From positions 62,001 to 126,000 of the forward strand of contig NZ_JAKGSB010000007.1 in assembly GCF_021568905.1 (NCBI RefSeq): DNA of 64,000 bases, given 5' to 3'. Below the pieces are notes generated by a model. It was not told the DNA's origin and ran no database searches. It saw only the letters and a list, made by a program, of their open reading frames with translations. A program made the translations under genes and the position numbers. Positions 22,983-49,677 of the stretch are shown in pieces. Source of the DNA: Zavarzinia marina. Its GTDB lineage: Bacteria > Pseudomonadota > Alphaproteobacteria > Zavarziniales > Zavarziniaceae. Each line of letters starts with the position of its first letter. The first letter of the stretch is position 1.

Positions 22983-23978
22983 TCAACTCTCCTTGCGGCG
23001 CAGGCGGTCGAGCACCACCGCGATGATGATCACGATGCCGACGGCGAGGATCTGAAAATAGGACGATATGCCGAGCATGTTCATCGCATTCGACAGCATG
23101 CCGAGGATCAGCACGCCGTAGATCACATGGATCATGCCGCCGGAACCGCCCGTCAGGGCGATGCCGCCGAGAACCACGGCCGCGATGGATTCGAGGGTGA
23201 TGCCCGGCTCGGCCGTGGGCTGCGCGGCGCCGACCCAGGCCGTCAGGACGATGGCGGCGATGCCGGCGGTGAGCCCGGAGAGGCCGTAGATCAGCATGGT
23301 GTGGAACGGCACGTTCACGCCCGACTTCAAGGCTGCGGCCCGGTTGGAGCCGATCGCATAGATATAGCGCCCCAGGGTGGTGCCGCGCAGGATGACGGCG
23401 GCGAAGATCAGGACGCCGGCCGCGATCAGATCGCTTGCGGGAATGCCGTAGACCGCGCCGAAGCCGATCGCATCGGTCAGTTCCGGCGGCACCGAATAGA
23501 TCGGCACGCCGTTCGCCAGGATCAGGGCGATCGCCTGGGCGACCGAGGCCATGCCCAGGGTGACGATCAGCGGCGAGGTCCGCATATAGGCGATGATCGC
23601 CCCCGAGACCAGCCCGACCGCGAGGCCGACCAGCGCCATCACCAGGACACCGCCGACGATGCCGAGCGACGGCACCGCCAGGATGCCGACGACGCCCGCC
23701 ACCGACATGACCGCCGCGATCGAAAGATCCAGCCCGCCGCCGATGATGGCGAAGGCCTGGCCCACCGAGACGATCAGCAGGGGGGCGATCTGGCTGCCCA
23801 GATTGGCGAGATTGCTGCCCGTCAGGAACTTCGGTTCGGCGATGCCGACACCGGCCGCCAGCAAAACGATCAGTGCGGGCAGAACCGCGTCGGCGGGGTT
23901 GAAACGACGGCGCGACCGCGCGGGCGCCGCCGGCTGGGTCTCGCTGGTGGTCATGGGCTGATCCTTCGTCATCTTCAT
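22983..23978 (-). CDS. Sugar-type ABC transporter permease (RbsC-like, BPD_transp_2)
   Basis: 331 residues with about eight to ten membrane helices and the RbsC-family landmarks GGGLDLSIAAVMSVAGV, GLISGAIIAYMRTSPLIVTLGM-like sequence (VGLVSGAIIAYMRTSP), and GGIALTGGSGGMIHVIYG near the end. The ATG overlaps the ATPase stop by 4 nt. It is the last gene of the minus operon that starts at 27249. The family name does not fix the substrate as a sugar; the catabolic context suggests an aromatic or heterocyclic compound. Confidence 0.9.
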   Translation of the reverse strand: MKMTKDQPMTTSETQPAAPARSRRRFNPADAVLPALIVLLAAGVGIAEPKFLTGSNLANLGSQIAPLLIVSVGQAFAIIGGGLDLSIAAVMSVAGVVGILAVPSLGIVGGVLVMALVGLAVGLVSGAIIAYMRTSPLIVTLGMASVAQAIALILANGVPIYSVPPELTDAIGFGAVYGIPASDLIAAGVLIFAAVILRGTTLGRYIYAIGSNRAAALKSGVNVPFHTMLIYGLSGLTAGIAAIVLTAWVGAAQPTAEPGITLESIAAVVLGGIALTGGSGGMIHVIYGVLILGMLSNAMNMLGISSYFQILAVGIVIIIAVVLDRLRRKES

Positions 23979-25510
23979 GATGCGGCGGCCTCCACCGCCT
24001 CTTGCTCGCGATGGCCGAGAATGTCGGCGACGATCGCGGCCTCGTCCTCATGGCTCGGCGGCCTGTATTCGTCGACGATCTCGCCGTCGATCACCGTGTA
24101 GATGACGTCGCAGAGCGCAATCGTCTCCTGCAGGTCGCTGGAGATCAGCAGCACGGCGGCACCGGCGTCGGCGCGCGCGCGGATCAGATCGTGAATGTCG
24201 CGCTTGGCCGCGATGTCGACGCCGGCCGTCGGATCCTCCAGCACGATCAGGCTGCCGTCGCCGGCGAGGCAGCGGCCGAGGATCACCTTCTGTTGATTGC
24301 CGCCGCTGAGACTGGTGATGGCGTCGGCGGCATCGGCATATCGGGTCCGCAGCCGGGCGAGCTGGCGTTCCGCATGGTCCGCCTCCCGGCGGTGACGCAG
24401 GAAACCCGCGATCTGATGGCCGGCCAATTGGGTAAGCATCAGATTCTCGCGGATGCTCCGGTTCGGCAGGATGCCGTTGGCGGCGCGTCCGGACGGCAGA
24501 TAGGCGACGCCGTGACGTGCCGCGACCTGCGGATTCGCCGGGCGGAAGTTGCGGCCCCAGAGCATGAGTTCGATGTCGCCCGGGCTTGCCAGACCGACGC
24601 TCGCGTGGGCCATCCGCTCGCGCCCGCAGCCGACGACGCCGTAGAGGCCGACGATCTCGCGCTCGCGCAGGCTGATGGCCGCGAGACGCCCGCGGCGCGA
24701 CCGCAGGCCGCTGAAACGCAGGACTTCGCGGCCCGGTGCCGCCTCGCGATGCGACGCCGTCATATCCATCCCGCCCGCCAGCTTGGCGACCACGAAGGCG
24801 GTTTCGGTCTCCCGGGTCACGGGAAAGGATTCGACCACGCGCCCGTCCTTCATCAGGGAGACTTCGTCCGCGACGGCGACCACTTCCTCGACATGATGGG
24901 TGACGAAGATGATCGCGATACCTTGGGTCTTGAGCTCGCCGATGATTTCCATCAGGCGCTGCTGTTCGACGAGGCCCAGCATCGCCGTCGGTTCGTCCAG
25001 GATGAGCACGCGGGGGTTCTGCGCCAGGGCCTTCACGATCTCGAGCAATTGCTGATCGGCGACCGGCAGCGTGCCGACCTTGGCATCGAGGTCGAAGCTG
25101 AGGCCGAAGCGCGACAGCAGCGCGCGGCACGCCTCGGTTTCCTGGCGCCGGCGCAGGCGCTGGAACGGGTGGCGTGCCCCTTCCGTCCCCAGGCATATGT
25201 TCTCGCGCACCGTGAGATCGGCGACCAGGGAGAGTTCCTGATAGACCATGGCGATGCCGAGGCGGCGCGCGTCGCCGACCTGGCGCAGGGCGACCGCCCG
25301 GCCGTCGACCATCACCTCGCCGTCGTCCGGGGCATAGAGGCCGCCGACGATCTTGCCCACCGTCGACTTGCCGGCACCGTTTTCCCCGAGGATGCAATGG
25401 ACCCGGCCAGCATGAAAGGCGATGCTGACGTCGTTCAGCGCCCGGGTGGGCCCGAAACTCTTGCTGGTCCGCCTGACCTCGACGGTCGCGACATCCGGAA
25501 CGAGGTTCAT
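23975..25510 (-). CDS. Sugar-type ABC transporter ATP-binding protein (RbsA-like, two domains)
   Basis: 511 residues with two ABC domains. The first has an intact GENGAGKST Walker A, Walker B VLILDEPTAML and a switch histidine in VTHHVEEV. The second has the degenerate P-loop usual for this family (GVVGCGRERMAH), signature LSGGNQQKV and Walker B LIVLEDPTAGVD. It is paired with the downstream permease. No binding protein is adjacent, but one of matching type lies at 30803-31885 under the same candidate operator. Confidence 0.92.
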   Translation of the reverse strand: MNLVPDVATVEVRRTSKSFGPTRALNDVSIAFHAGRVHCILGENGAGKSTVGKIVGGLYAPDDGEVMVDGRAVALRQVGDARRLGIAMVYQELSLVADLTVRENICLGTEGARHPFQRLRRRQETEACRALLSRFGLSFDLDAKVGTLPVADQQLLEIVKALAQNPRVLILDEPTAMLGLVEQQRLMEIIGELKTQGIAIIFVTHHVEEVVAVADEVSLMKDGRVVESFPVTRETETAFVVAKLAGGMDMTASHREAAPGREVLRFSGLRSRRGRLAAISLREREIVGLYGVVGCGRERMAHASVGLASPGDIELMLWGRNFRPANPQVAARHGVAYLPSGRAANGILPNRSIRENLMLTQLAGHQIAGFLRHRREADHAERQLARLRTRYADAADAITSLSGGNQQKVILGRCLAGDGSLIVLEDPTAGVDIAAKRDIHDLIRARADAGAAVLLISSDLQETIALCDVIYTVIDGEIVDEYRPPSHEDEAAIVADILGHREQEAVEAAAS

Positions 25511-25541: not shown

Positions 25542-25949
25542 TCAGAGCGCGGCGGTCGCGGTCACCTCGAACAGAAAGGGCTCCTGCACGAGTCGGTCGA
25601 CGATCAGCAATGTCGCCGGCGGATAGGCGCCATCGGGGAACATCTCGGGAAACGCCAGCCGCCGATAGGCCATCAGCCTGGGGACGTCCTGCGAATGCAC
25701 CAGATAATAGGTGAGCTGGACGATGTTGCCCCAATCGGCGCCGCATCCCTTCAGGACCGCGCCGATATTGGCGAAGACCTGTTCGCACTGGCGCTCGAAG
25801 TCCCCCTCGCCGACGACGGCGCCGTCGGGCCCCGTCGCCAGCTGGCCGGAAATGAAGAGGAATTCGGACGCCTTCACCCGCGCGACCTGGGAATACTGGC
25901 CGAGCGGACGCCCCGTGCCTTCCGGATTGACGATTTCGATCGTCGACAT
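25542..25949 (-). CDS. RidA (YjgF/YER057c/UK114) family protein, active-site Arg replaced
   Basis: About 135 residues from the ATG at 25949, with GAGGGG upstream; an ATG at 25964 overlapping the previous stop is the alternative. RidA features: PLGQYSQVARV, FLFISGQLATGPDG, QCEQVFANIGAVL and a C-terminal FEVTATAAL. Canonical imine deaminases carry P-x-R-S/T; here the position reads PPATLL, with alanine for arginine. It may therefore not act on the usual 2-aminoacrylate substrate. It sits between the FAH-family hydrolase and the ABC ATPase. Confidence 0.85.
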   Translation of the reverse strand: MSTIEIVNPEGTGRPLGQYSQVARVKASEFLFISGQLATGPDGAVVGEGDFERQCEQVFANIGAVLKGCGADWGNIVQLTYYLVHSQDVPRLMAYRRLAFPEMFPDGAYPPATLLIVDRLVQEPFLFEVTATAAL

Positions 25950-25960
25950 GGCGCCGCCCC

Positions 25961-26827
25961 TCATATCACCGGATTGACCAGACGGCCGAGGCCGGCGATC
26001 TCGACCTCGACCACGTCCCCGGCCGCCAGGAAGCGCGGCGGATCGAAGCCGAGGCCGACGCCCGCCGGCGTGCCGGTGGCGATGATGTCACCCGGGCGCA
26101 GTGTGAGGCCGGACGAGATCGTCTCGATCAGGGTCGGGATGTCGAAGATGAGCTGTGCCGTGTTGGCCTGCTGGCGCAATTCGCCGCTGACCCAGCATTT
26201 GACGTCCAGCCCGGTGCCGTCCGCCTCGTCCGCCGTGACCGCCCAGGGCCCCATGGGGCAGAAGGTATCCAGCGACTTGCCGAGGAACCATTGCTTGTGG
26301 CGCTGCTGCAGGTCGCGGGCGGTGACGTCGTTCAGGATGCTGTAACCCCATACGTAGTCCATCGCCTCGGCGCGGGGAATGGCCCGCCCCGCCTTGCCGA
26401 TGATGACCGCCAGTTCCGCCTCGTAGTCGATCTGATCGCTGAGCCCCTTGGGCAGCACGATCGCGGCCCCCGGCGCCACCACGGTTTCCGGCGCCTTGGT
26501 GAAGACGATCGGCGCGTCCGGAATCGCGGAGGCGCCGGCGGCGGCACTGGTGTCGAAACCGCTGTCCGCGAATTCCTGGGCGTGGTCGTAGTAATTCTTG
26601 CCGACACAGATGATGTTGCGCGGCGGCCGCGGCATCGGTGCCAGCAGGGAAACGCTCTCCAGCGGCAGGGCGTCGCCCGCGAAGCTCAGGCCACCCTTCA
26701 AGGCCTCGTAGCGCTCGATCAGGTCCAGCATGGTGGAAACGCCGGCGAGGGGGCGGACGGTGCCCGCCTCGGCGTCGAGCAGGGCGACCTTCTCGGTTCC
26801 GGCGATGAGGACGGTTACGAACTTCAT
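25961..26827 (-). CDS. Fumarylacetoacetate hydrolase (FAH) family protein
   Basis: 288 residues. The FAH catalytic domain starts around residue 70 with NIICVGKNYYDHAQE; metal-binding acidic residues are in DYEAELAVIIGK, followed by VWGYSILNDVTARDLQ and GDIIATGTPAGVG. Family members hydrolyse or decarboxylate ring-cleavage products (fumarylpyruvate hydrolase, 4-oxalocrotonate decarboxylase, acylpyruvases). It is flanked by RidA genes with 4-nt overlap, consistent with a late step after extradiol cleavage. The exact reaction is not determined. Confidence 0.9.
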   Translation of the reverse strand: MKFVTVLIAGTEKVALLDAEAGTVRPLAGVSTMLDLIERYEALKGGLSFAGDALPLESVSLLAPMPRPPRNIICVGKNYYDHAQEFADSGFDTSAAAGASAIPDAPIVFTKAPETVVAPGAAIVLPKGLSDQIDYEAELAVIIGKAGRAIPRAEAMDYVWGYSILNDVTARDLQQRHKQWFLGKSLDTFCPMGPWAVTADEADGTGLDVKCWVSGELRQQANTAQLIFDIPTLIETISSGLTLRPGDIIATGTPAGVGLGFDPPRFLAAGDVVEVEIAGLGRLVNPVI

Positions 26828-27249
26828 GACGCGACCTGCTTCGCCTGAACCACCGCCTCGACCTCGAGCAGGAATTCCTGCTTCACCAGCCGGTCGACGA
26901 TCAGCAGCGTGTTGGGGGGGAACAGCGGCCCCTTGAAGATCTCGGGAAACAGCGCGGCGCGCAGATCCATGAAGGCCGCGATGTTCTGCGAATCGACGAG
27001 ATAGGTGGTGAACTTGACGACATCCTCGAAACCGGCGCCGAGGCCCGACAGGACATCGCCGAGATTGTCGAAGACCTGCTTGAACTGGGCCGCGAAGTCG
27101 CCGGTGCCGACCACGCCGCCGTCCAGGCCGACCGAAAGCTGGCCGGCGATGAAATAGAGCGGGCCGCCCGGGGTGTAGGTGGCGTGGGAATAGAGCCCCT
27201 GCGCCGGGCAGGTGCCTTCCGGATTGATATAGCGGATCCCGTTACTCAT
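26824..27249 (-). CDS. RidA family protein, active-site Arg replaced
   Basis: 141 residues. RidA landmarks: AQGLYSHATYTPGGPLYFIAG, QFKQVFDNLGDVL, and the C-terminal LLEVEAVVQ. The position of the conserved arginine is occupied by asparagine (PPNTLLIV). Its architecture and ending are similar to the 25542-25949 protein, so the two are likely a local duplication. It is the first gene of a five-gene minus operon (RidA, FAH, RidA, ATPase, permease), with a motif-A operator upstream. Confidence 0.87.
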   Translation of the reverse strand: MSNGIRYINPEGTCPAQGLYSHATYTPGGPLYFIAGQLSVGLDGGVVGTGDFAAQFKQVFDNLGDVLSGLGAGFEDVVKFTTYLVDSQNIAAFMDLRAALFPEIFKGPLFPPNTLLIVDRLVKQEFLLEVEAVVQAKQVAS

Positions 27250-27343
27250 CTGCTCGATACTCCTGCTCGTCGACGGTTTCGACGGCCGTCTGCGCTAAAC
27301 CGTTTGCATCGTAGGCATCGTGGTATAGGGTGAGCAACAGAAA

Positions 27344-27358
27344 ATTGGATACACGTAT
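27344..27358. promoter_or_regulatory. Cluster A operator-like site (motif A)
   Basis: ATTGGATACACGTAT in the divergent gap between the RidA operon (start 27249, minus) and the alpha/beta hydrolase operon (start 27415, plus). Its reverse complement contains GTGTATCCAAT, which recurs exactly at 31956-31966 and 36108-36118. It is proposed to bind the GntR regulator encoded at 32083-32763. Confidence 0.6.
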
Positions 27359-27414
27359 TAACTTTGCAAAAACCGGATCGGACCGGCGGGTCGCGGACGG
27401 ACTTGGAGTGCAGG

Positions 27415-28227
27415 ATGTCTCTCGAAAGCTTCACCATGGATGTGCAGGGTGTCGCCGCGCGGTGCTGGGCCGGCGGCAGCGGCAGGCCGCTCATGCTGCT
27501 GCACGGCTCCGGCCCCGGCGCGGCGTCGCAGGGGACCTGGCGCCATGTCATCGACGCCCTGACCGCCCGCTACCGCGTCTATATGACCGACCTCATCGGC
27601 TTCGGTGAGTCGGGCCGCAAGACCGAAGCGCCCTTCTTCGATCTCGACCTCTGGCTCGCCCAGGCCGAGGCGCTGCTGGACCGGATTCCGGAGCAGGAGG
27701 TCGGGCTGGTCGGGCATTCGATCTCCGGCACCACGGCCCTGCGCCTCGCCGGGCGCTCGCCCCGGATCACGCGCCTGATGACCACGGCCACCATGGGCTG
27801 GAACTATCTCGAAACGCCCTATACCGCCCTTTGCTGGACGTTCCCGGAAACCAGGGAAGACCTGCGCCGGACGCTGAAGGCGCTGATGTACGATCACGAC
27901 GGCATTACCGACGAACTGCTGGACTACCGCATGGGCATCCTGCACGACGGTGTCTACGGCCCCCATTTCTCGGCCATGTTCGAGGGCGAGAAGCAGCGAT
28001 TCATCGAGGCGGCCGCGCTGTCGCCCGCCGAACTGGCGAAGGTGACCTGCGAGGTCATGATGGTCCACGGCATGAACGACGTCATGTTCCCCGCCGAGGG
28101 CACCACCATCCCCATGTCGCGCCATCTGCCCCAGGCCGACCTGCTGCTGCTGGCCCGTTGCGGCCATCTGCCCGCCCTGGAACATCCCGACAAGCTGCTG
28201 AACGCCATGCTCGGCTTCTTTCGCTGA
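27415..28227 (+). CDS. Alpha/beta hydrolase, meta-cleavage-product-hydrolase-like
   Basis: 270 residues. The oxyanion-loop motif LHGSGPGAAS at 29-38 is typical of C-C bond hydrolases acting on meta-cleavage products. The nucleophile elbow GHSISG is at 100-105 with Ser102, the acid in MVHGMNDVMFP, and the catalytic histidine in CGHLPALEHP. The ATG at 27415 was chosen by family alignment. It is the first gene of a plus-strand operon with the extradiol dioxygenase and MFS transporter, so it likely hydrolyses that dioxygenase's product. Confidence 0.88.
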   Translation: MSLESFTMDVQGVAARCWAGGSGRPLMLLHGSGPGAASQGTWRHVIDALTARYRVYMTDLIGFGESGRKTEAPFFDLDLWLAQAEALLDRIPEQEVGLVGHSISGTTALRLAGRSPRITRLMTTATMGWNYLETPYTALCWTFPETREDLRRTLKALMYDHDGITDELLDYRMGILHDGVYGPHFSAMFEGEKQRFIEAAALSPAELAKVTCEVMMVHGMNDVMFPAEGTTIPMSRHLPQADLLLLARCGHLPALEHPDKLLNAMLGFFR

Positions 28228-28272
28228 CGCGACGCCCTCCCCCGCCTACTTCGTGAAAAAGGATTTCCTTCA

Positions 28273-29268
28273 ATGGCAAAGATCGTCACGGCCATCAGTA
28301 TGTCCCATGCGCCGGGCGCCGTCGGTTGGGCCGATACCCCGCCGGCGGATCAGAAGGCGCGCATCGCCCGGATCCACGAGGACCTGCGCGAGCGGCTCGC
28401 GGCGGCGAAGCCCGACATCATCGTCGCCTTCCTGGACGACCATTTCGAGAACCACTTCCGCTACATGATGCCGACCCTGTCGATCGCCGTCGCGGCCAGC
28501 CACAGCGGTCCCGCCGACTACATGATGAAGGCGCTGCAGTTCGACGAGAAGGTCGTCATCCCGGGCGAGGAGGAAACGGCCGAGACCCTGCTGCGCGAGT
28601 TGACCAAGGGCGGCTTCGACATGACCCGCATGGGGTCGATCGAATATGGCAACAACCTCCTCGTGCCGCTGAAGTTCATCCGGCCGGAATTCGACCTGCC
28701 GGTGATCCCGCTCTATCTGAACGTCTTCTCGCCGCCGCTGATGCCCTATGCCCGCGCCTATGATTTCGGGGCCGCCGTGCGCCGCGTGCTCGACGCCCTG
28801 CCGGGCGACACCAGGGTCGCCTTCCTCGCCACCGGCGGGCTGTCCCACTGGCCGCCGGTCTGGACCGAAGGGGCACCCGAAGACGACACCTTCCTGCAGC
28901 GTCAGCGCCGCTACCAGACCGAAGGCAAGGGCGTGCTGGAAAGCGACCCGACCCTCTATTCCGATCTCGCCCAATACGAGATCGACATGATGAACCGCAA
29001 GCAATGGCCGCTCGGCTATCAGCATCCGCTGGTGAACGAGGAATGGGACCGCGAGATCCTGGAAGCCTTCGGCCGGGGCGACATCGGCTATTTCCGCGAC
29101 CTGACCTATGAGGAAGTCGAGGAGCGCGGCGGCCACGGCGGCCACGAACTGCTGAACTGGGTGGCCCTGATGGGCGCGGTGAAGGGCGCCCCCGCCACCT
29201 ATGTCAAATATGAGTCCGTGGTCGAATGGATCACCGGCATGAGCTACGTCGCCTACGACATGGAGTGA
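28273..29268 (+). CDS. Class III (LigB-type) extradiol ring-cleavage dioxygenase
   Basis: 331 residues. Candidate Fe(II) ligands and catalytic residues: H12 in SMSHAPG, H57/H61 in DDHFENHF, and H192 in GGLSHWPP. The C-terminal half carries the LigB core. A 122-base stretch (28903-29024) is identical to the paralogue at 38428-39441. It should open a hydroxylated aromatic ring with O2. Family members include protocatechuate 4,5-dioxygenase, gallate dioxygenase and the 2-aminophenol 1,6-dioxygenase beta subunit; substrate is not assignable here. It is followed by an MFS transporter. Confidence 0.9.
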   Translation: MAKIVTAISMSHAPGAVGWADTPPADQKARIARIHEDLRERLAAAKPDIIVAFLDDHFENHFRYMMPTLSIAVAASHSGPADYMMKALQFDEKVVIPGEEETAETLLRELTKGGFDMTRMGSIEYGNNLLVPLKFIRPEFDLPVIPLYLNVFSPPLMPYARAYDFGAAVRRVLDALPGDTRVAFLATGGLSHWPPVWTEGAPEDDTFLQRQRRYQTEGKGVLESDPTLYSDLAQYEIDMMNRKQWPLGYQHPLVNEEWDREILEAFGRGDIGYFRDLTYEEVEERGGHGGHELLNWVALMGAVKGAPATYVKYESVVEWITGMSYVAYDME

Positions 29269-29350
29269 GCGGCCCGGCCGTCGGCCGGCTTTCCGTCCCG
29301 TTTCTCATGGTTCCCGGTGCCGGCTGCCGGGACGAAGAGGAATTCCCAGC

Positions 29351-30748
29351 GTGCGCGACAGACGAACCTCCCTCGCGGTGCCCCTGCTGGTCGCCGGCGC
29401 CTATTTCATGGAAATGCTGGACGGTACGGTGATCGCCACCGCCCTGCCCAGCATGGCCGAAACCTTCGAGGTGCCGGCGGTCGATCTCAACGTCGGCATG
29501 TCGGCCTATCTGCTCACCCTTGCCGTGCTGATTCCGGTCAGCGGCTGGATCGCCGATCGTTTCGGGCCGCGCCAGACCTTCGCCACCGCGGTCGCCATCT
29601 TCACCGTGGCGTCGATCTTCTGCGGCCTGAGCGACGATCTGACGACCTTCACGGCGTCCCGCGTGCTCCAGGGCGTGGGCGGCGCCCTCATGGTGCCGGT
29701 GGGCCGTCTCGTCGTGCTGCGCCACACGGATCGGGGCGACCTGGTGCGGGCCATCGCACTCATCACCTGGCCGGGGCTGGTGGCGCCGATCCTGGGACCA
29801 CCCGTGGGCGGCTTCCTGACCACTTTCGCCAGCTGGCGCTGGATCTTCCTGCTGAACGTGCCGCTGGGCCTGATCGCCCTGGTGCTGGCGCTGCGTCTGA
29901 TCCGGGGCGAGGCGGAAGACCGCCGCACGCCCTTCGACTGGCCGGGCTTCGCCCTGAGCGGCTTCGCCTGTCTGGCACTGATGTATTCCGTCGAACTGGC
30001 GGCCCGGCCCCATGTCTCGTGGAGCCTCGTCGCCACGCTGCTCGGCGCCAGCCTGCTGGCCGGCTGGGCCATGGTGCGCCACGCCCGGCGAGCGGCGCAT
30101 CCGCTGGTGCGTTTCGACGCCCTGTCGATCCGCACCTTCGCGGTCACCATTTGGGGCGGTTCCGCCTTTCGCATGGCGATCAGCGCCATTCCCTTCCTGA
30201 TGCCGCTGATGTTCCAGCTCGGCTTCGGTCTCGACGCCTATCAGGCCGGCCTTCTCGTGCTCGCCATCTTCGCCGGCAATCTCGCCATGAAACCGGGCAC
30301 GACCGCGGTGCTGCGCCGTTTCGGCTTTCGCAGCACGATGATCGTCACCGGCCTCGTCAATGCCGCCACGATCTTCGCCTATGCCCTGTTCACGCCCGAC
30401 ACGCCCGTCGCCCTGATCGTCGTCCTGCTCTTCATCGGGGGCATGTCACGCTCGATGCAGTTCACCTGCGTCAATACCCTTGCCTTCGCCGACGTTCCGG
30501 CGGCCGGCATGAACGGCGCCAACACGCTGTTCACCATCGTGCAGCAGATCTCGATCGGTCTCGGCATCACCCTCGGCGCCGTCGCCCTTCGCCTGGGCGA
30601 GGCGCTGGCCCCCGCCGGGGATCTGGCCCGCTTTCACCTCGCCTTCCTGGTGATCGGCGCCATCGCCCTGATGGCCCTGATCGACACCCTGACCCTCGCC
30701 GCCCGGGCCGGCACCGAGGTCAGCGGCCACACGCCCCGCACCAAATGA
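29351..30748 (+). CDS. MFS transporter, DHA2 (EmrB/QacA-like) family
   Basis: 465 residues from a GTG with a purine-rich stretch (GAAGAGGAA) upstream. The first helix contains MEMLDGTVIATALPSM, the DHA2 motif D1. Motif A is GWIADRFGPRQTF and motif C-like sequence is VGGALMVPVGRL then GPPVGGFL. About 13-14 helices fit. DHA2 members are usually proton-driven exporters; here it may export a toxic intermediate or move the pathway substrate. It is last in the plus-strand operon, with a strong hairpin just after the stop. Confidence 0.88.
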   Translation: MRDRRTSLAVPLLVAGAYFMEMLDGTVIATALPSMAETFEVPAVDLNVGMSAYLLTLAVLIPVSGWIADRFGPRQTFATAVAIFTVASIFCGLSDDLTTFTASRVLQGVGGALMVPVGRLVVLRHTDRGDLVRAIALITWPGLVAPILGPPVGGFLTTFASWRWIFLLNVPLGLIALVLALRLIRGEAEDRRTPFDWPGFALSGFACLALMYSVELAARPHVSWSLVATLLGASLLAGWAMVRHARRAAHPLVRFDALSIRTFAVTIWGGSAFRMAISAIPFLMPLMFQLGFGLDAYQAGLLVLAIFAGNLAMKPGTTAVLRRFGFRSTMIVTGLVNAATIFAYALFTPDTPVALIVVLLFIGGMSRSMQFTCVNTLAFADVPAAGMNGANTLFTIVQQISIGLGITLGAVALRLGEALAPAGDLARFHLAFLVIGAIALMALIDTLTLAARAGTEVSGHTPRTK

Positions 30749-30749
30749 A

Positions 30750-30778
30750 ACGGCGCCGGCCACGAGGGCCGGCGCCGT
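30750..30778. terminator. GC-rich hairpin between convergent genes
   Basis: ACGGCGCCGGCC (30750-30761), loop ACGAG, GGCCGGCGCCGT (30767-30778): a perfect 12-bp stem 2 bases after the MFS stop and 25 bases from the end of the opposing binding-protein gene. There is no U-tract, but position and strength suggest a bidirectional terminator or an mRNA-stabilising hairpin. Confidence 0.7.
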
Positions 30779-30802
30779 CCTCCCGACAGTCTGCGGAAGA
30801 CC

Positions 30803-31885
30803 TTACTGGAAGGCGCTGATCGACCAGTCGGCGGGCGGGATGTCGGTCAGGTAATAGGGATAGTCGTGCACGTTTTCCTTGGTCAGGATCTGTTCCGGCA
30901 CGATCAGCGCGGGATAGAGCGCGCCCTCGGGCTGCTTCAGATCCGGCATCGGCAGACCCTCGTTCTTGCGGATCGCGTATTGAACCATCAGGCGGCCCAT
31001 GAGGATCGAGGGTTCGGTGCTCTGGCCGAGCAGGGAACCGTCCTCGAGCGCCGGGAAGATATGTTCCGAGACGGTCGACGAGACGACGCCGATCTTCATC
31101 TTGCGCTGCTTGGCGGCCTGGATCGCGCCCATGCCCAGCGTCACCTCGGGCGTGAAGAAGAACTTCGCGTCAGGGTTCTTCTCCATCATGTCGGAGGCGA
31201 GGCCGAGCGCGTAGGAAATATCGATGGCGCCGCCCACCGGCCCTTCGACCACCGACAGGCCGTCGCATTTCTCCGCCTGCTCGCGGAAGCCCTTGGCCCG
31301 CAGGTTGGCCCATTCGGCACCCGCCGGGCCGGGGATGGAGAGGGCCTTGGCCGGGCCCGGTTCCTTGCGGCCGCAGACGAAGTCGGCGAGGCCGGCGCCG
31401 ATCGAATAGTCGTCCTGGACCACGCCGAAATCGACCTGATCGCTGTTCACCGGAATGCCCCCCGCAATCACCATGGTGCCGGCCTTGCGCAGCGAGGTCA
31501 GGATCGCATTGTAGCCGTCGAAGGCCGCCGGACCGAGGACCAGCACGTCGATGCCGCGGGTCTTCATGGTCTGGATCTGGCCGAACTGCTGGCTGACGTT
31601 GCCATAGGCCCCGGCCACGCTGACCTGCACCACTTCGACGCCGGCGCGCTTCGCCTCGTCGACGATGCCATAGGCCATGCCCTTCCAGTAATTGTCCTGA
31701 AGATGGACGACGGTGACGCCGAAGCGGAGCGGTTTGGTCGCGACGACGGGCTCGATCAGGCCCAGGAAACGATCGGGCTCCTCGGCGCGCGCGGCACCGT
31801 TCGAGAGCCAGGCGGTCAGGCCGATGGCGGCCAGGGCGACGAGCCCGCGAAAGCGTGATCGACGGGGAGAGGAAATGGTCGTCAT
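30803..31885 (-). CDS. Periplasmic substrate-binding protein, sugar-type/TorT-like (peripla_BP_4)
   Basis: 360 residues beginning MTTISSPRRSRFRGLVALAA, with a signal peptide ending ARA-EE near residue 35. The mature part has the two-lobe periplasmic-binding fold: GVTVVHLQDNYWKGMAYGI, RGIDVLVLGPAAFDGYN and IPVNSDQVDFGVVQDDY. It is closer to TorT-like proteins than to RbsB. It is monocistronic, 5 kb from the matching ABC ATPase/permease (22983-25510), but both have a motif-A site upstream, so it is likely their missing binding subunit. Confidence 0.87.
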   Translation of the reverse strand: MTTISSPRRSRFRGLVALAAIGLTAWLSNGAARAEEPDRFLGLIEPVVATKPLRFGVTVVHLQDNYWKGMAYGIVDEAKRAGVEVVQVSVAGAYGNVSQQFGQIQTMKTRGIDVLVLGPAAFDGYNAILTSLRKAGTMVIAGGIPVNSDQVDFGVVQDDYSIGAGLADFVCGRKEPGPAKALSIPGPAGAEWANLRAKGFREQAEKCDGLSVVEGPVGGAIDISYALGLASDMMEKNPDAKFFFTPEVTLGMGAIQAAKQRKMKIGVVSSTVSEHIFPALEDGSLLGQSTEPSILMGRLMVQYAIRKNEGLPMPDLKQPEGALYPALIVPEQILTKENVHDYPYYLTDIPPADWSISAFQ

Positions 31886-31950
31886 GAAGCCTCGCTGCAC
31901 GATTGGACGGTGCCCGACCCGAGTGCCGGATTTCCCGCGTCCCAAAACTG

Positions 31951-31966
31951 TACACGTGTATCCAAT
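31951..31966. promoter_or_regulatory. Cluster A operator-like site (motif A)
   Basis: TACACGTGTATCCAAT, containing the palindrome TACACGTGTA and the exact motif GTGTATCCAAT at 31956-31966, about 70 bases upstream of the binding-protein start (31885, minus). It shares 13 of 14 positions with the reverse complement of the site at 27344-27358. Confidence 0.6.
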
Positions 31967-32082
31967 TATGCAGAAGCGCAAAATGAGCGGCAGAACCGAA
32001 GATATCGCTGTTCTTCCGCCGATTCCCTGCGCGCCCGACGCTTTCCCGCCCGAAGTTTCCTCGCCCAACGGGGCGTCGGGTG

Positions 32083-32763
32083 TCAGAGACCGGCGACCTT
32101 GGTTCCGTTCCGCTGGCGCAGGAAGGCGATGACGCTAACAGCGGCCGTATCGATATGGTGGCTGACGGCGCGCTCGGCCAAAGTGCCGTTCTTCGTGCGC
32201 AGCGCGTCGATCAGGGCGCGGTGTTCCGCGCCCTCCATCTCCGGCCGGTCGTAGACGCGATTGTAGAGCAGCAGATAGGGATGCACCGAGGCCCGGATGC
32301 GGCGGATCTCGGCCAGCAGCCGGGCACGGCCCGGAATGCTGCACATATAGTCGTGGAATTCGTCGTGATGGCGCAGCCAGAGCTGCGCGTCATCGGCGGC
32401 GCGATCCATGCGCCCGGCCATGATTTCCAGCTCGTGCAGATGCATTTCCGTGCATTTCACGGCCGCGTGCCGTGCCGCCAGCCCTTCGAGCGCGGCGCGC
32501 ATCTGGAACAATTCCTCCACGTCCTCGGGCTTCAGCGGGGTGACGATGGCGCCGCGGTTGGGCCTGTTGGTGACCAGGCCTTCCGCGTCGAGCTGAACCA
32601 GCGCCTCGCGCACGGGCATGCGGCTGATGCCCAGGACTTCGGCGATCTCCGATGGGACGATCTTGGTGCCGCCCGGAATCGCGCCGCCGACGATCTGGTC
32701 GCGGATATAGCGATAGGCCTGCTGCTGTGCCGATTGCTGAGCATCACCATCGATGAAGGACAT
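32083..32763 (-). CDS. GntR-family regulator, FadR/FCD subfamily (cluster A regulator)
   Basis: 226 residues from the ATG at 32763. The N-terminal winged helix has AYRYIRDQIVGGAIPGGTKI and EIAEVLGISRMPVREALVQL. The C-terminal all-helical FCD domain has the metal-ligand pattern HHDEFHDYM and later histidines (RAVSHHID). FCD regulators bind small carboxylates or ring-cleavage intermediates and usually repress. It is divergent from RidA/amidohydrolase, with TTTGGATCCAAT between, and is the best candidate to bind motif A. Confidence 0.9.
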   Translation of the reverse strand: MSFIDGDAQQSAQQQAYRYIRDQIVGGAIPGGTKIVPSEIAEVLGISRMPVREALVQLDAEGLVTNRPNRGAIVTPLKPEDVEELFQMRAALEGLAARHAAVKCTEMHLHELEIMAGRMDRAADDAQLWLRHHDEFHDYMCSIPGRARLLAEIRRIRASVHPYLLLYNRVYDRPEMEGAEHRALIDALRTKNGTLAERAVSHHIDTAAVSVIAFLRQRNGTKVAGL

Positions 32764-32940
32764 GAAACGCGCTTCTCCCTCTGCCCTGCCGAAAAAGGCC
32801 GATTGGATAGGTACATACCCTGCCCGTCCGAAGCAGGGAAGAGCCATGCACGGTGCCCTTGCGGAACATTGCCACGATACAGCCGATGTCGCGACAGGCT
32901 CGGCGGTGCCGAGGTCGGTTGACGGCAGAGCGCCACCATG

Positions 32941-32952
32941 TTTGGATCCAAT
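32941..32952. promoter_or_regulatory. Palindromic variant of motif A
   Basis: TTTGGATCCAAT, with the perfect palindrome TTGGATCCAA inside, in the divergent gap between the GntR gene (32763, minus) and the RidA gene (32975, plus). It shares ATCCAAT with the other motif-A sites, and ATCCAATTAT with the site at 31951-31966. It probably mediates autoregulation. Confidence 0.5.
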
Positions 32953-32974
32953 TATCCATTTATACGGAGCGATC

Positions 32975-33388
32975 ATGCAACAGTTAAAGCCCCTCCGTGC
33001 CGGACGCGAGGAAATCTCTCTCGGCATCACCCCGGCGATCAGCCACTATACGGACGCCGTGCGCTTCGGCGACCTTCTGTTCATCTCGGGCATCGTCGCC
33101 ATCGACGCGGATCTCGAGGTCGTGTCCGACGATGTGGCCGAGCAGGCGGACTACATCTTCGACGTCATCGGACGGATCATGGCCAAGGCCGGCGCGGGCT
33201 TCGCCGACGTGCTGCGGGTCACCGTCTATCTGCTCGACGTCGCCGACCGCACGCGGATCAACCCGGTACGCCAGAAATACTTCGGCGACGCCCGCCCCGC
33301 GAGCACGCTGATCGGCGTGCGCGAACTCGCCCTGCCGGGCCTCAAGATCGAGGTGGAGGCCGTCGTGGGCCTGCCGGCGTCGGCCTGA
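32975..33388 (+). CDS. RidA family protein, active-site Arg replaced
   Basis: 137 residues; the ATG follows ACGGAGCG. RidA features: ISHYTDAVRFGDLLFISGI, EQADYIFDVIGRIMAKAG, and the ending LKIEVEAVVGLP. Where canonical members have P-x-R-S/T, this reads RPASTLIGV, so serine occupies the arginine position. It is the first gene of a two-gene operon with the amidohydrolase, suggesting it handles the imine or enamine produced next to a C-N bond hydrolysis. Confidence 0.87.
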   Translation: MQQLKPLRAGREEISLGITPAISHYTDAVRFGDLLFISGIVAIDADLEVVSDDVAEQADYIFDVIGRIMAKAGAGFADVLRVTVYLLDVADRTRINPVRQKYFGDARPASTLIGVRELALPGLKIEVEAVVGLPASA

Positions 33389-33410
33389 CCCGCAATCGAG
33401 GAAAGCCCCC

Positions 33411-34778
33411 ATGTCCACCGACCACGCCGCGCCGACGATCCTCTTCGGCAAGGTCTTCGACGGTACTCTCGATCCCGCGCTCGACGACGGCGCGGTCGTC
33501 ATCGCGGGCGAGCGTATCGCCTGGGCAGGGCCGCGCGCGGCCCTGCCCGAGCGCTGGGACCGGCCCGATGCCACCCGCATCGACCGGCCCGGCCGCAGCA
33601 TCACGCCGGGCCTGATCGACGGCCATACCCATATTTCCTTCGGCAACGCCCGCTCGGAGGAGGAATTGGCCCTCTATACCCCCGTCGAATATCGGGCGAT
33701 CAAGGCCGGCGTGAACGCGAAACGCGTGCTCCAGGCCGGCGTCACCAGCGCCTTCGACGCGGCGACCACCTATGACGTCGCCGTCAACGTGCGCGATGCC
33801 ATCGATGCCGGCCTGATCGAGGGGCCGCGCTTCGCCGTCTCCGGCAAGCAGCTGACGACGCATCAGGGCCTCGAGGACTCGTTCCCCAACAACATGGCCT
33901 GGCCCCCCGGTCAGGCGGCGGTCCTGATCAAGAGCCGCGACGACCTGATCGAGGCGATCCGTTATCAGATCAAGGACCGGGTGGACTGCATCAAGGTCTC
34001 CGGCTCCAACGACCTGATGATCACGCCCGATTCCCTCGACGGTGCCGCCTTCACGGCCGAGGAATTCGCGATGATCGCCGATGAATCCCATCGGCTCGGG
34101 CGGATCTGCTCGGTCCATGCCCGTTCGCGGGATGCCTGCCGCGATGCCTCGGCCGCCCGCTTCGACATCCTCTTCCATGCCTCCTATATCGACGACGAAG
34201 GCATCGAGAACTGCCTGCGTCACGGCCTGACCATTACGCCGACGCTGACCTTCCTCATGAACATCGTCGATGCCGCGGCCGGCACCCATGCCTCGAGCGC
34301 GGCGGACGGCATCCGTCGCGAGCTCGACTCGGCCTTCGAAATGCTGCCCCGCGCCTATCGCGCCGGCGTGCCCATGGTCTGCGGCTCGGAGAGCGGCTGG
34401 TGCTACGTGCCCTATGGCGACTGGCACGGGCGCGAGCTTCAGATCTTCGTCGAGCATCTGGGCATGACGCCGATCGAGGCCATCCATGCCGCGACCCTGG
34501 CCGCCACCCGCTGTTTCCGGCGCTTCGGCCATGAAGTCGGAAAGATCGAGGCCGGACGCTATGCCGACCTTCTGGTGATCGACGGTGACGTCGGGGCCGA
34601 CATCACCCTGTTCCAGAAGAAGAGCCGCTTCGATTTCGTCTTCAAGGGCGGCCGTGCCGTCGACCTGACACCGCCGCCCGTCGCGCGCGAATGGTTCTTC
34701 GAGCGTCACAAGCTCTTCCTCGACGGGCGCCTGCATTACGACGAGACGCAGGGGACAGGATACGTCACCCGCCTTTGA
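33411..34778 (+). CDS. Amidohydrolase superfamily protein
   Basis: 455 residues. The metal-site HxH is GLIDGHTHISF (H72, H74). A mid-barrel lysine is in CIKVSGSNDL, further histidines are in VHARSRDAC and LFHASYID, and the usual late aspartate position falls in GSESGW, lacking a clear Asp. The C-terminal small beta domain (GRYADLLVIDGDV) is typical of imidazolonepropionase/Xaa-Pro dipeptidase-type amidohydrolases. It likely hydrolyses a C-N bond of a pathway substrate or intermediate. It follows a RidA gene by 22 bases and ends at a strong terminator. Confidence 0.88.
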   Translation: MSTDHAAPTILFGKVFDGTLDPALDDGAVVIAGERIAWAGPRAALPERWDRPDATRIDRPGRSITPGLIDGHTHISFGNARSEEELALYTPVEYRAIKAGVNAKRVLQAGVTSAFDAATTYDVAVNVRDAIDAGLIEGPRFAVSGKQLTTHQGLEDSFPNNMAWPPGQAAVLIKSRDDLIEAIRYQIKDRVDCIKVSGSNDLMITPDSLDGAAFTAEEFAMIADESHRLGRICSVHARSRDACRDASAARFDILFHASYIDDEGIENCLRHGLTITPTLTFLMNIVDAAAGTHASSAADGIRRELDSAFEMLPRAYRAGVPMVCGSESGWCYVPYGDWHGRELQIFVEHLGMTPIEAIHAATLAATRCFRRFGHEVGKIEAGRYADLLVIDGDVGADITLFQKKSRFDFVFKGGRAVDLTPPPVAREWFFERHKLFLDGRLHYDETQGTGYVTRL

Positions 34779-34807
34779 GCGCCGCGACCTGAAAGCGTCA
34801 GGACAAG

Positions 34808-34843
34808 AAAACGCCGCCCGGACCGAAATCCGGGCGGCGTTTT
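34808..34843. terminator. Bidirectional rho-independent terminator
   Basis: AAAACGCCGCCCGG (34808-34821), loop ACCGAAAT, CCGGGCGGCGTTTT (34830-34843): a perfect 14-bp stem with an A-tract on one side and a T-tract on the other. It lies between the convergent amidohydrolase (ends 34778) and flavin monooxygenase (ends 34866) and can serve both. Confidence 0.9.
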
Positions 34844-34865
34844 ACGTTCGGCGGAATGCCGCCGG

Positions 34866-35999
34866 TCAGGCCCCGGCGACGTAACCATCCGGGATGTGAT
34901 AAGCGCCGCGATTGAGGCCCGCCTGGAACCAGGGCTTCGCCGTCATGGACTGGATGAAGTCCGTGCGCATCGGGCCGAAAGCCGACGGCCAGTGCCCGGC
35001 GAGCAGACCATAGACATAGGACCAGCGCTGGACGTGATCGGTCAGGGCGCGCTGGCGCGTCTCCCAGCGATCGAGGGCGGCCGGAATGTCGTCGGTCCCC
35101 GTCACCTCGGTGGCCAGCGCCAGAACGTTGACGAAGGCGGTGTTCGCCGCCTGGCCCAGGTTCGGCGGCATGGCATGGGCGGCATCGCCGACGATGGCGA
35201 CCTTGCCGCTGGACCAGCGCCGGCACACGACGGCGATGATGCGATCCCAGCGCCCCGCCTCGGCGAAACGTTCCACATAGTCGCGGCAATGCGGGAACAT
35301 GCGGGCCCACAGTTCCCGGTCCACCTTCTTGTCCGACGTCATCTCCTCGACCGGCGCGGCCAGGAAGATGTAGTTCTCGTTGTCGACGCAGGGGTTGAAC
35401 AGCAGGCGATAGGGGCCGTGCCAATTTTCGGTGATGACGTCGTCCGGATCCCCGTCCTTGCGGTCGATCATCATGCGGATGCCACTTTCGACGCCGAAAT
35501 CGGCGAAGCGGGAGCAGTTGAGCTGCTCGCGAAGGCGCGACCAGGCGCCATCCGCCGCCAGGATCAGATCGGCCCGACGGACCTCGCCGGTCTCGAGCGT
35601 GAGGGTGCCCGAAGGATCGACTCCGGTCACGACGGAGGAGGTCTTGATCTCCACGCCGAGTTCCACAACCCGGTCGATCAGCGCCTGATAGAGATCGGCG
35701 CGCGGCGGCAGCAGCAGCTTGTCGCGGTCGTTGAAGGTGCGGCTCATCAGCACCCGCTCGTCCTGATCGACGCAGCGCCATTCCTTGATGTGCTTGGCGC
35801 GGCGCACGGCATCGTCATAGGCGCCGACCACCTGGAGCGACTTCAGGCCGTTCTCCCACATCCAGATGCCGGCGCCGAACATGCGCAGATCCGGCGAACG
35901 TTCGTGCAGAGTCACCTTCCAGCCGAGCTGCGCCATGCGCGCCGCCGCCATCAGGCCGGTCAGGCCGGCGCCGGCGATTTCCACTGTCTGCGTCTTCAT
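34866..35999 (-). CDS. FAD-dependent aromatic monooxygenase, MHPCO-like (cluster A)
   Basis: 377 residues from the ATG at 35999 (an upstream ATG at 36014 is possible). The FAD-binding GxGxxG is AGAGLTGLMAAARMAQLGW near the start, then HERSPDLRMFGAGIWMWENG, DLILAADGAWSRLR (DG motif) and VAIVGDAAHAMPPNLGQ (GD motif). The residue pattern resembles 2-methyl-3-hydroxypyridine-5-carboxylate oxygenase from memory, a single-component NAD(P)H flavin hydroxylase. It is predicted to hydroxylate the ring ahead of extradiol cleavage. It carries a motif-A site upstream. Confidence 0.88.
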   Translation of the reverse strand: MKTQTVEIAGAGLTGLMAAARMAQLGWKVTLHERSPDLRMFGAGIWMWENGLKSLQVVGAYDDAVRRAKHIKEWRCVDQDERVLMSRTFNDRDKLLLPPRADLYQALIDRVVELGVEIKTSSVVTGVDPSGTLTLETGEVRRADLILAADGAWSRLREQLNCSRFADFGVESGIRMMIDRKDGDPDDVITENWHGPYRLLFNPCVDNENYIFLAAPVEEMTSDKKVDRELWARMFPHCRDYVERFAEAGRWDRIIAVVCRRWSSGKVAIVGDAAHAMPPNLGQAANTAFVNVLALATEVTGTDDIPAALDRWETRQRALTDHVQRWSYVYGLLAGHWPSAFGPMRTDFIQSMTAKPWFQAGLNRGAYHIPDGYVAGA

Positions 36000-36107
36000 C
36001 AAAGCCACTCCCAAAATCAGCGACGTCGGCGATCACGGCCACCGCCGACGCTTCATGTCCGACAGCCGGCGGTCTTCACCGGCTGTGCGCGTGGCGATTT
36101 TGTATTT

Positions 36108-36118
36108 GTGTATCCAAT
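36108..36118. promoter_or_regulatory. Cluster A operator-like site (motif A)
   Basis: Exact GTGTATCCAAT about 109 bases upstream of the cluster A flavin monooxygenase (start 35999, minus). It lies between that gene and the end of the cluster B monooxygenase, marking the border of the two clusters. Confidence 0.55.
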
Positions 36119-36208
36119 CTGGCAAGGCTAAATGCGCGAAGGACATCGCGAAGACCGCGATGTCCTGCTCGATGGCTCGACGCCCGCCGCGCTGCGGGCG
36201 CGACGGCG

Positions 36209-37357
36209 TCAATCCCGTGTGTCGTAGCCGGCCGGCGTATGCCGCGCCCCCCGGAACAGGCCCGCGTTGAACCATTCCATGCCCGCGACGAGACGCACGA
36301 GATCGCTGCGGAGCGGCATGAAGGATGTCGGCCACTTGCCGAGCACCAGATTGTAGATATAGGACCACCATTGCACATGGTCGGTCAGCGGGCGCTGCCG
36401 CGCCTCCCACTCGCGCAGGGCGCCGGGAATGTCGTCCAGGGCGCAGCCGTCCACGGCCATGGCCAGGGCCATGGCATTGCTGAACGCCATGTTGGCCGAC
36501 TGGCCCAGGTTCGGCGGCATGGCATTGGCGGCATCGCCGACGATGGCGACCCGGCCGGACGACCATTCGCGCAGGCGGACGTTGACGATCCGGTCCCAGC
36601 GCGACGCCGTGTCGACGCGGGTGAACAGGTCCCCTGCCGCAGGAAATTTCTCCGCCCAGAAATCGACCTCGACAGGGATCACCCGGGCCCGGTCCTCGCC
36701 GACGGGCCCACCCAGATAGACATAGTCGGAACCGTCGGTGCAGGGATTGAACATCACCCGCCAGGGGCCGGACCACCATTCGGTTATGACGTCGGTCGGA
36801 TCGCCCTCGCGGTGATCCACCAGCAGGCGGAAGCCGCCTTCGACGCCATAGTCCATCCACGCCGTGGCGAACAGGCTCTCGCGCAGGCGGGAATAGGCGC
36901 CGTCGGCGACGACGACGAGATCCGCCCTGCGTTCCTCCCCGCTCTCCATCACCAGGACGCCTTCCTTGCGGACCGCCGTCGCGACCGACGACGTATGCAC
37001 CTCGACGCCGTAATATCCGGCCCGTTCGATCAGCGCCTCGTAGAGGTCGGCCCGAGGCGGCAGCAGCAGCCGGTCCCGCCCCTCGCCCAGCAGGATCTGA
37101 CTCATCAGCAGGCCGCCGTTGCCGTCCTCGATACGCCATTCGCGAATCTTGCGGGCATTGGCCACGGCCTTGTCGTAGGCGCCGAGAATCTTCAGCGCCT
37201 TCAGGCCGTTGTCCCACAGCCAGATGCCCGAGCCGAACATGCGCAGGTCGTCGGCCCTCTCGTGCAGCACCACCTTCCATCCGAGTTGGGCGAGGCGCGT
37301 ACCCAGCGCCAGGCCGGCGAGACCGGCTCCGGCGATTTCGACTTTCTTCTGAGACAT
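36209..37357 (-). CDS. FAD-dependent aromatic monooxygenase, MHPCO-like (cluster B, first copy)
   Basis: 382 residues, paralogous along its length to the 34866-35999 enzyme. FAD motif AGAGLAGLALGTRLAQLGW, then HERADDLRMFGSGIWLWDNG, DLVVVADGAYSRLR and VAIVGDAANAMPPNLGQ. The usual GDAAH histidine is asparagine here (GDAAN). It is divergent from the second GntR gene and has a palindromic AT-rich site upstream. It likely hydroxylates a related but different aromatic substrate. Confidence 0.88.
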   Translation of the reverse strand: MSQKKVEIAGAGLAGLALGTRLAQLGWKVVLHERADDLRMFGSGIWLWDNGLKALKILGAYDKAVANARKIREWRIEDGNGGLLMSQILLGEGRDRLLLPPRADLYEALIERAGYYGVEVHTSSVATAVRKEGVLVMESGEERRADLVVVADGAYSRLRESLFATAWMDYGVEGGFRLLVDHREGDPTDVITEWWSGPWRVMFNPCTDGSDYVYLGGPVGEDRARVIPVEVDFWAEKFPAAGDLFTRVDTASRWDRIVNVRLREWSSGRVAIVGDAANAMPPNLGQSANMAFSNAMALAMAVDGCALDDIPGALREWEARQRPLTDHVQWWSYIYNLVLGKWPTSFMPLRSDLVRLVAGMEWFNAGLFRGARHTPAGYDTRD

Positions 37358-37555: not shown

Positions 37556-38431
37556 ATGCCCAGGACAAAATCGGCGAGTACCCTGCCCGCCCTCGATGCC
37601 GCGGGAATGACCGAGCATGAATCGCTGCCGGCCACGATCTACCGACGCCTGAGGGAGGCGATCCTGAGCGGCAATCTGCGTCCGGGCCAGGTTCTGAAGC
37701 AGGAAGAGCTCGCCAAGCAGTTCAACACCAGCCGCGTGCCCCTGCGCGAGGCGCTGCAACACCTCCAGGCCGACGGTTTCGTCGTCCTGCGGCCGCGCCG
37801 CGGCTATGCCGTCACCGCGCTCGACAGCCAGGAGGTGCTCGGCATCCTTCAGCTTCGGATGCTGATCGAGGGATACGCCGGCTATGTCGCCACCCGCACC
37901 CGCACCCAGGCCGACGTCCGTCAGATCGAGGCGACCCTCCGCGAAATGGAGAAATTCCCCTCCCGCGATCTGACCCAAGCCCAGATCGGGCGCTGGCTCG
38001 TGCTCAACCGCCGGTTCCACGATCAGCTCTTCGCCGCCTCGCGCCGGCCGGACGTGCAGCAGCTCGCCAGCAACATGGCGGCGAAGATCGACCCCTACAT
38101 CATGCTGGAATTGAACACGACCCACGACCTGGTCGACGGCCACCATTTCCATCGCGAGATCTTCGAAGCCTTCAAGGCCGGCGACGCGGCCCGCGTCAGC
38201 GTGCTCAGCCGGGTGCATTGCGAACTCACCGCGCGCCGCTTCCTGTCCGTCCTTCATGGCAAGGGCCTCCTTCTCGAGGTTTCGGAGCAGCAGGTCACCG
38301 ATCTCGGTCCCGCCGCCGCGCTCGAGGCCGGCGGCACCGTCGGACTGCCGGACATCGTCGCCGCGCCCCCCGCAGCGACGATGCCCCCCAAGCCGCGAAG
38401 CCGCGCGCCCAAGACCGCCCGCTCGGCCTAG
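37556..38431 (+). CDS. GntR-family regulator, FadR/FCD subfamily (cluster B regulator)
   Basis: 291 residues. Winged helix: IYRRLREAILSGNLRPGQVL and EELAKQFNTSRVPLREALQHL. The FCD domain covers about residues 95-225, with RRFHDQLFAAS and HHFHREIFEAF for the metal site. A further 60-residue Ala/Pro-rich tail follows, longer than usual. Its stop overlaps the convergent dioxygenase stop by 4 bases. It probably controls cluster B through the TTTTGAATACAAT motif. Confidence 0.88.
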   Translation: MPRTKSASTLPALDAAGMTEHESLPATIYRRLREAILSGNLRPGQVLKQEELAKQFNTSRVPLREALQHLQADGFVVLRPRRGYAVTALDSQEVLGILQLRMLIEGYAGYVATRTRTQADVRQIEATLREMEKFPSRDLTQAQIGRWLVLNRRFHDQLFAASRRPDVQQLASNMAAKIDPYIMLELNTTHDLVDGHHFHREIFEAFKAGDAARVSVLSRVHCELTARRFLSVLHGKGLLLEVSEQQVTDLGPAAALEAGGTVGLPDIVAAPPAATMPPKPRSRAPKTARSA

Positions 38432-39497: not shown

Positions 39498-39510
39498 ATT
39501 GTATTCAAAA
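39498..39510. promoter_or_regulatory. Cluster B operator-like site (motif B)
   Basis: ATTGTATTCAAAA, the reverse complement of TTTTGAATACAAT, within ATATT...AATAT symmetry at 39496-39513. It lies between the MFS stop (39546) and the dioxygenase start (39441, minus). The same 13-mer occurs at 45978-45990 and 49399-49411. Confidence 0.65.
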
Positions 39511-45974: not shown

Positions 45975-45990
45975 CATTTTTGAATACAAT
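45975..45990. promoter_or_regulatory. Cluster B operator-like site (motif B)
   Basis: CATTTTTGAATACAAT, in the divergent gap between the RidA gene (start 45856, minus) and the hydrolase gene (start 46091, plus). The identical 16-mer occurs at 49396-49411, and its 13-base core at 39498-39510 in reverse. A second partial copy (CTATATTCAAG) follows at 45994-46004. Confidence 0.65.
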
Positions 45991-49321: not shown

Positions 49322-49677
49322 ACAGCGTCTCTCCCTCGCCCGGTTTGGCGCCATACCGACGGACCGCCGCCATGGATCGCGGGTCCCCCGGATGGCATTT
49401 TTGAATACAATATAAATTAAACGCACTGTCAACGATGCCCGCGCGAGGCCCCACCGAAGGCCGTCTCGCAGGGTGTCTGCTATCCGGTGGCGACTCGTCC
49501 GATCGGCCGACGGACGACGGACGACCGACGGCGGCGCCACCGGCACCGACTGGGGCATCGCACGCCACTATTCCCCGCCCGAACTGAACAACACGGAATT
49601 CGGCCTCGACCACATTCACTGTCGGGGCCGCCTGCCGTTCCTTCGCACGACGCCGGCCAATCGCAGCCCTGGAACCG
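49322..49677. other. Intergenic region with motif B, otherwise no gene
   Basis: Contains the motif-B site (49396-49411) and an AT-rich stretch to about 49425 that is the likely promoter of the MFS gene. The remainder to 49677 is GC-rich with no convincing coding frame; it may be decayed upstream sequence of the kdpE-like remnant. Confidence 0.45.
49396..49411. promoter_or_regulatory. Cluster B operator-like site (motif B)
   Basis: CATTTTTGAATACAAT, identical over 16 bases to 45975-45990, followed by AT-rich ATAAATTAA. It lies 75 bases upstream of the MFS start (49321, minus) and is the last site of the series. Confidence 0.65.

Follow-up and report, generated by a model that had tools for sequence, protein, structure and literature searches.

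The catabolic gene cluster (cluster A) in the window, i.e. the whole stretch of 64,000 nucleotides that was analysed, raises the question of what the word repeated in its promoter gaps does and which protein would read it. The genes of cluster A are arranged as follows:

22983-23978, minus strand, ABC transporter permease, presumed to be on the ridA2-FAA-ridA1 transcript
23975-25510, minus strand, ABC transporter ATPase, presumed to be on the same transcript
25542-25949, minus strand, ridA1
25961-26827, minus strand, FAA hydrolase
26824-27249, minus strand, ridA2
27415-28227, plus strand, alpha/beta hydrolase of the meta-cleavage type
28273-29268, plus strand, LigB extradiol dioxygenase 1 (LigB1)
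29351-30748, plus strand, MFS transporter
30803-31885, minus strand, periplasmic substrate-binding protein
32083-32763, minus strand, gntR1, candidate VanR-group FCD/GntR regulator and proposed repressor
32975-33388, plus strand, ridA3
33411-34778, plus strand, amidohydrolase
34866-36002, minus strand, FMO1, flavin monooxygenase related to MHPCO

The nearest enzyme of FMO1 was 2-methyl-3-hydroxypyridine-5-carboxylate oxygenase (216 bits versus 80 for the next enzyme), the alpha/beta hydrolase was nearest to meta-cleavage product hydrolases, and LigB1 belongs to the extradiol dioxygenase family; these resemblances suggest that cluster A encodes a ring-cleavage pathway, whose substrate may be a hydroxypyridine-like compound. 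The amidohydrolase was not found in six other genomes of the order, so that cluster A looks accessory and was probably acquired; a plasmid protein search returned no relatives of the amidohydrolase, nor were relatives of GntR1 found in that search or in a viral contig scan. No paper on a cluster of this make-up was found by literature search.

A preliminary description had reported an exact 11-mer in three promoter gaps, a palindromic variant beside the cluster A GntR gene, and one regulon under that GntR protein. Scanning of the window and of the genome confirmed the 11-mer GTGTATCCAAT at 27344-27354 (minus), 31956-31966 (plus) and 36108-36118 (plus), and the variant TTTGGATCCAAT was found at 32941-32952 as described. 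A fourth window copy of the core TATCCAAT, missing from that description, was located at 32802-32809 on the minus strand, giving a fifth site. The candidate operators are:

27338-27361, minus strand, operator 1, core GTGTATCCAAT at 27344-27354, in the divergent gap between ridA2 and the alpha/beta hydrolase gene
31949-31972, plus strand, operator 2, core GTGTATCCAAT at 31956-31966, outer halves TGTAC and ATGCA, upstream of the substrate-binding protein gene
32796-32819, minus strand, operator 5, weaker, ACCTATCCAAT at 32802-32812, 39 bp upstream of gntR1
32935-32958, plus strand, operator 4, TTGGATCCAA at 32942-32951 plus outer half ATCCA, 24 bp upstream of ridA3
36101-36124, plus strand, operator 3, core GTGTATCCAAT at 36108-36118, in the -35/-10 spacer of the predicted FMO1 promoter

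All four cluster A gaps longer than 150 bp hold sites, namely the divergent ridA2/hydrolase and gntR/ridA3 gaps, the latter with two, and those of the substrate-binding protein gene and FMO1; to this extent the earlier statement that all cluster promoters are covered stood, while the genes behind shorter gaps presumably lie on shared transcripts. GTGTATCCAAT was the sole 11-mer with at least three copies in the cluster A gaps. Its three matches were reached in none of 100 dinucleotide shuffles, and when the four promoter gaps, which comprise 779 of 10,666 bases, were shuffled 2000 times, no 11-mer was ever shared by three of them. Genome-wide (3,951,514 bases), scans with sequence patterns returned GTGTATCCAAT at the same three window places and none besides, with 0 matches of a reversed-pattern control; the TTGGATCCAA core had one further genome copy (C10:287023), and the degenerate form TTGNATNCAA occurred at 11 places (control 3), four of them within 16.5 kb of this window. 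When a matrix was derived from the five sites, its top five window matches were those same five, the next one, at 10192, falling within a reading frame. The scan that the preliminary description had proposed thus yielded cluster-confined matches, and wide scatter across unrelated promoters was not seen, because most TGGATCCAA-type look-alikes elsewhere in the genome lie inside open reading frames.

If the axis is placed within the core, the word becomes the pseudo-palindrome K-TG-K-AT-C-CAA, which is 10 bp long and symmetrical in the form TTGGATCCAA; this core is one version of the 10-bp palindrome TTG-K-AT-M-CAA. A reading of GTGTATCCAAT as the arm of a long palindrome centred at its edge was dropped because the other arm was mismatched, leaving the axis inside the core (TTG-NATN-CAA). 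By aligning 20 sites from the window and orthologs, a 24-bp operator, TGKAT-nn-KTGKATCCAA-TT-WTCCA, was obtained, whose outer half-sites do not vary in position: TGKAT precedes and WTCCA follows the core, each at a distance of two bases. In these 20 sites, 147 outer half-site letters matched versus 55 ± 6 in shuffled sequences (best shuffle 77), and the matches dropped to background on a one-base shift; the outer half-sites of the five window sites were weaker than those in most orthologs' sites. Extra boxes 7-12 nt from the centre have been described for 13 FadR-subfamily groups (PMC4494728), and NanR of E. coli binds cooperatively to the repeated half-sites of its (GGTATA)3 operator (PMC8012715). 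NanR is like the proposed GntR1 in being an FCD-type repressor whose half-sites recur at a short, constant distance, but these are direct repeats, whereas the candidate GntR1 sites have a central palindrome flanked symmetrically by weaker halves, and NanR carries a 32-residue N-terminal extension, of which GntR1 has none.

The motif was also found beside relatives of the regulator. Among 44 GntR relatives taken from the family and the class, a perfect TTGKATMCAA occurred at most 300 bp upstream in 18 (about 0 expected by shuffles), six of which are orthologs from one genus and therefore not independent; counting matches at no fewer than nine of ten positions, 21 were observed versus 0.64 expected. 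Orthologs of 39-44% identity across the phylum had the operator or a close variant within about 110 bp upstream of gntR in eight of eight cases, and the locus of a 45% ortholog had four TGKATMCA sites. Oceanibacterium hippocampi encodes a 60% GntR1 ortholog in a cluster with relatives of ridA3, the amidohydrolase, the ABC ATPase, the permease, the substrate-binding protein and the FMO; its ridA/amidohydrolase gap (L029:4135-4420) contains ATTGGATACAA and GTGTATCCAGT, 186 bp apart, which are the two best matrix matches in 20 kb. A genome carrying the amidohydrolase and the hydrolase with no GntR1 ortholog nearby had 20 kb without a site, a weak negative control only, because one TTGTATCCAT lies ∼5.6 kb further on. 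As side observations from few independent lineages, regulators with SR[M/L/V/I]P tended to GG/CC at operator positions 4/7, and those with SRTP tended to TTGTATACAA in the alignment of GntR1 with loci L010-L055; that the residue following Arg in SR[M/L/V/I/T]P may go with G/C or T/A at positions 4/7 was, with so few lineages, noted only.

GntR1 belongs to the FCD subfamily of the GntR superfamily, having an N-terminal GntR winged helix-turn-helix domain (PF00392, E 8.7e-15) and a C-terminal FCD domain (PF07729, E 2.1e-20), both above the curated cut-offs. A structural model, built on seven rows, had a mean pLDDT of 85.5 and a pTM of only 0.67, and six helices were predicted in its effector domain (79-103, 106-121, 126-142, 147-171, 179-189 and 193-218); six rather than seven helices there mark the VanR group of FCD regulators (PMC7797058). 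In a fold search with this model, Atu1419 was the top PDB match, and Atu1419, McbR, AlkR and TM0439 outranked FadR. By its predicted six-helix effector domain and nearest solved folds, GntR1 would fall into the VanR group. Its DNA-reading motif SRMP and wing motif PNRGA were invariant in the seven aligned orthologs, the SRMP arginine, the counterpart of Arg45 in Atu1419, being kept in GntR1 and six orthologs. Metal-binding FCD regulators are recognised by an effector pocket with three conserved His and an Asn/Asp: H137, H181 and H203 were invariant and aligned with the three His of Atu1419, and the fourth position seems to be taken by an invariant His133 in place of Asn. Assignment to the Burkholderia-type PhnR (TIGR03338) was rejected at 103.2 bits versus a curated score of 271.5, as was that to the vanillate repressor VanR proper, which is defined by linkage to vanillate demethylase genes and release by vanillate, since no vanAB-type genes were found among the scanned cluster A proteins.

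Atu1419 of Agrobacterium fabrum, a VanR-group FCD/GntR repressor (PDB 6z74, 6za3 and 6za7), recognises ATGTATACAT, a palindrome of 10 bp located on -10 boxes or in the -35/-10 spacer, and in its DNA-bound crystal the key contact is Arg45-G3, with a change of G3 abolishing binding (PMC7797058). It is the closest known counterpart of the modelled GntR1 fold, including the six-helix effector domain, and its palindrome with essential G3/C8 resembles the candidate GntR1 sites, which likewise lie on predicted -10 elements or between predicted -35 and -10 elements. Both regulators have two sites in the gap of their own gene, 190 bp apart for Atu1419 and 140 bp for GntR1, and Atu1419 controls aromatic catabolism, a likeness to cluster A. 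The two proteins, however, are only ∼25% identical, with Met49 of GntR1 in place of Thr46, their palindrome letters differ (TTGGATCCAA versus GTGTATCCAA), and extra outer half-sites are described for the GntR1 sites, unlike those of Atu1419. G3/C8 were kept in four of the five window sites, and operator 5, having no G3, is predicted to be the weakest. Operator 4 and its relatives would qualify as VanR-type operators, i.e. 10-bp palindromes with G3/C8 placed in a promoter and often near the regulator gene. The looping proposed for Atu1419 has a tetramer binding two palindromes, and the two sites in the gntR/ridA3 gap would by analogy allow it; the 186 bp between the operators of O. hippocampi is near the 190 bp of the looping Atu1419 sites.

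We infer with high confidence that the repeated word is bound as the operator of GntR1, which would be an autoregulated, metabolite-released repressor encoded in the middle of cluster A. One regulon under the GntR protein at 32083-32763 is likewise favoured by the motif being cluster-confined genome-wide and accompanying the regulator across species; the preliminary description was right on the sites and very probably right on the regulator. A GntR1 dimer would read the pseudo-palindrome KTGKATCCAA (ideal form TTGGATCCAA), and the weaker outer halves, TGKAT and WTCCA, probably make room for an additional contact or another dimer, which may bind cooperatively. Without inducer, GntR1 would sit on or beside the core promoters of gntR1 itself and of five catabolic transcripts, where it would presumably block RNA polymerase. 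Binding of a pathway compound, the probable inducer, to the putatively metal-containing FCD domain would release it, and uptake (ABC transporter, substrate-binding protein and MFS transporter) and ring degradation (flavin monooxygenase, LigB dioxygenase, hydrolases, Rid proteins and amidohydrolase) would be switched on together. Operator 3 occupies the spacer of the sole sigma-70-like promoter match of cluster A, that of FMO1, and operator 4 shares bases with a putative -10; the likeliest mechanism is therefore steric repression that a metabolite relieves. The other promoters were weakly predicted, the regional count of promoter-like matches being at shuffle level.

Such an ordinary local gene switch is a well-known kind of system. 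What is added here is a fifth site, the extension of the operator, the support from phylogenetic comparison and the contrast with the adjoining cluster B. An uncharacterised VanR-type regulator that is conserved in several Proteobacteria would thereby gain a regulon and a testable 24-bp operator, and with them a prediction of the genes that work together in one pathway; being pathway-responsive and having a defined operator, such a repressor is also a candidate biosensor part.

Cluster B carries a second FCD/GntR gene, GntR2 (37559-38431), encoded 1.5 kb outside cluster A and 31% identical to GntR1. Its promoter gaps contain three copies of TTGAATACAA (39499-39508, 45980-45989 and 49401-49410), found nowhere else in the genome, and TTGAATACAA is likely the operator of GntR2; the cluster B operator variant also reads TTGAATACAAT. 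FMO1 and FMO2 (36209-37357) are tandem paralogs related to MHPCO-type ring-opening oxygenases, and the FMO2 promoter gap has the TTTTGTATAAAATTT word instead. The two genes appear to lie in different regulons with the regulon border between them. Tentatively, and at rather less than an even chance, the two regulons could have parted when positions 4 and 7 of a single ancestral VanR-type operator changed (KTGKATCCAA versus TTGAATACAA), with the border at FMO1/FMO2 and with cluster A under cooperative or looped repression from a 24-bp operator of four half-sites. Side by side, clusters A and B would make a compact natural case of paralogous repressors keeping their operators apart.

That the cluster A sites are read by GntR2 or by both paralogs, making clusters A and B one regulon, could be argued from GntR2 being the same kind of protein, from the paralogous FMO (56%) and LigB (72%) genes that the clusters share, and from one 41% GntR2 relative having ATGGATCCAA sites beside its gene. 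Cluster B, however, has its own thrice-repeated variant, absent elsewhere in the genome, and GntR1 orthologs carry the A-type site whereas the closest GntR2 relative (53%) has CTGTATACAG upstream, which leaves this reading improbable. Activation by GntR1 from these sites, or a word that is an unrelated repeat or promoter element, is a slightly weaker contender: the regulatory sign is unreadable from sequence and some promoters were not confidently placed, but the operators overlap or fall between predicted core promoter elements as those of the repressor Atu1419 do, and the word accompanies the regulator from species to species, as a general promoter element would not.

We consider least probable of all that the sites are bound by another VanR-type paralog (C10:287149-287748), whose own gntR/benE gap contains the identical palindrome, ATTGGATCCAAT. 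Relatives of this regulator and its palindrome were present in five of five congeners examined but the cluster A amidohydrolase in none of the five, and its locus is without the GTGTATCCAAT form; repression by GntR1 remains the preferred reading, with cross-talk of the C10 paralog possible at operator 4. The operator VanO of Caulobacter VanR is ATTGGATCCAAT, a palindrome thus shared with the core of operator 4 and the benE/gntR gap. It is contained in the insert for a Caulobacter vanillate-promoter plasmid (PMC6538847), and a BamHI site is said to be in VanO (PMC4920640). Unlike the Caulobacter VanR system, cluster A has no vanAB genes among its scanned proteins and its commonest operator is the asymmetric GTGTATCCAAT.

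Two minor observations concern these paralogs. A partial copy, ATATTGTATTCA, lies at 45804 in cluster B, near the start of the ridA4 gene. The perfect ATTGGATCCAAT at C10:287023 (L057:7024) is placed between a benE-type transporter gene and the VanR-type gntR, and five further genomes of the genus retain this palindrome upstream of gntR.
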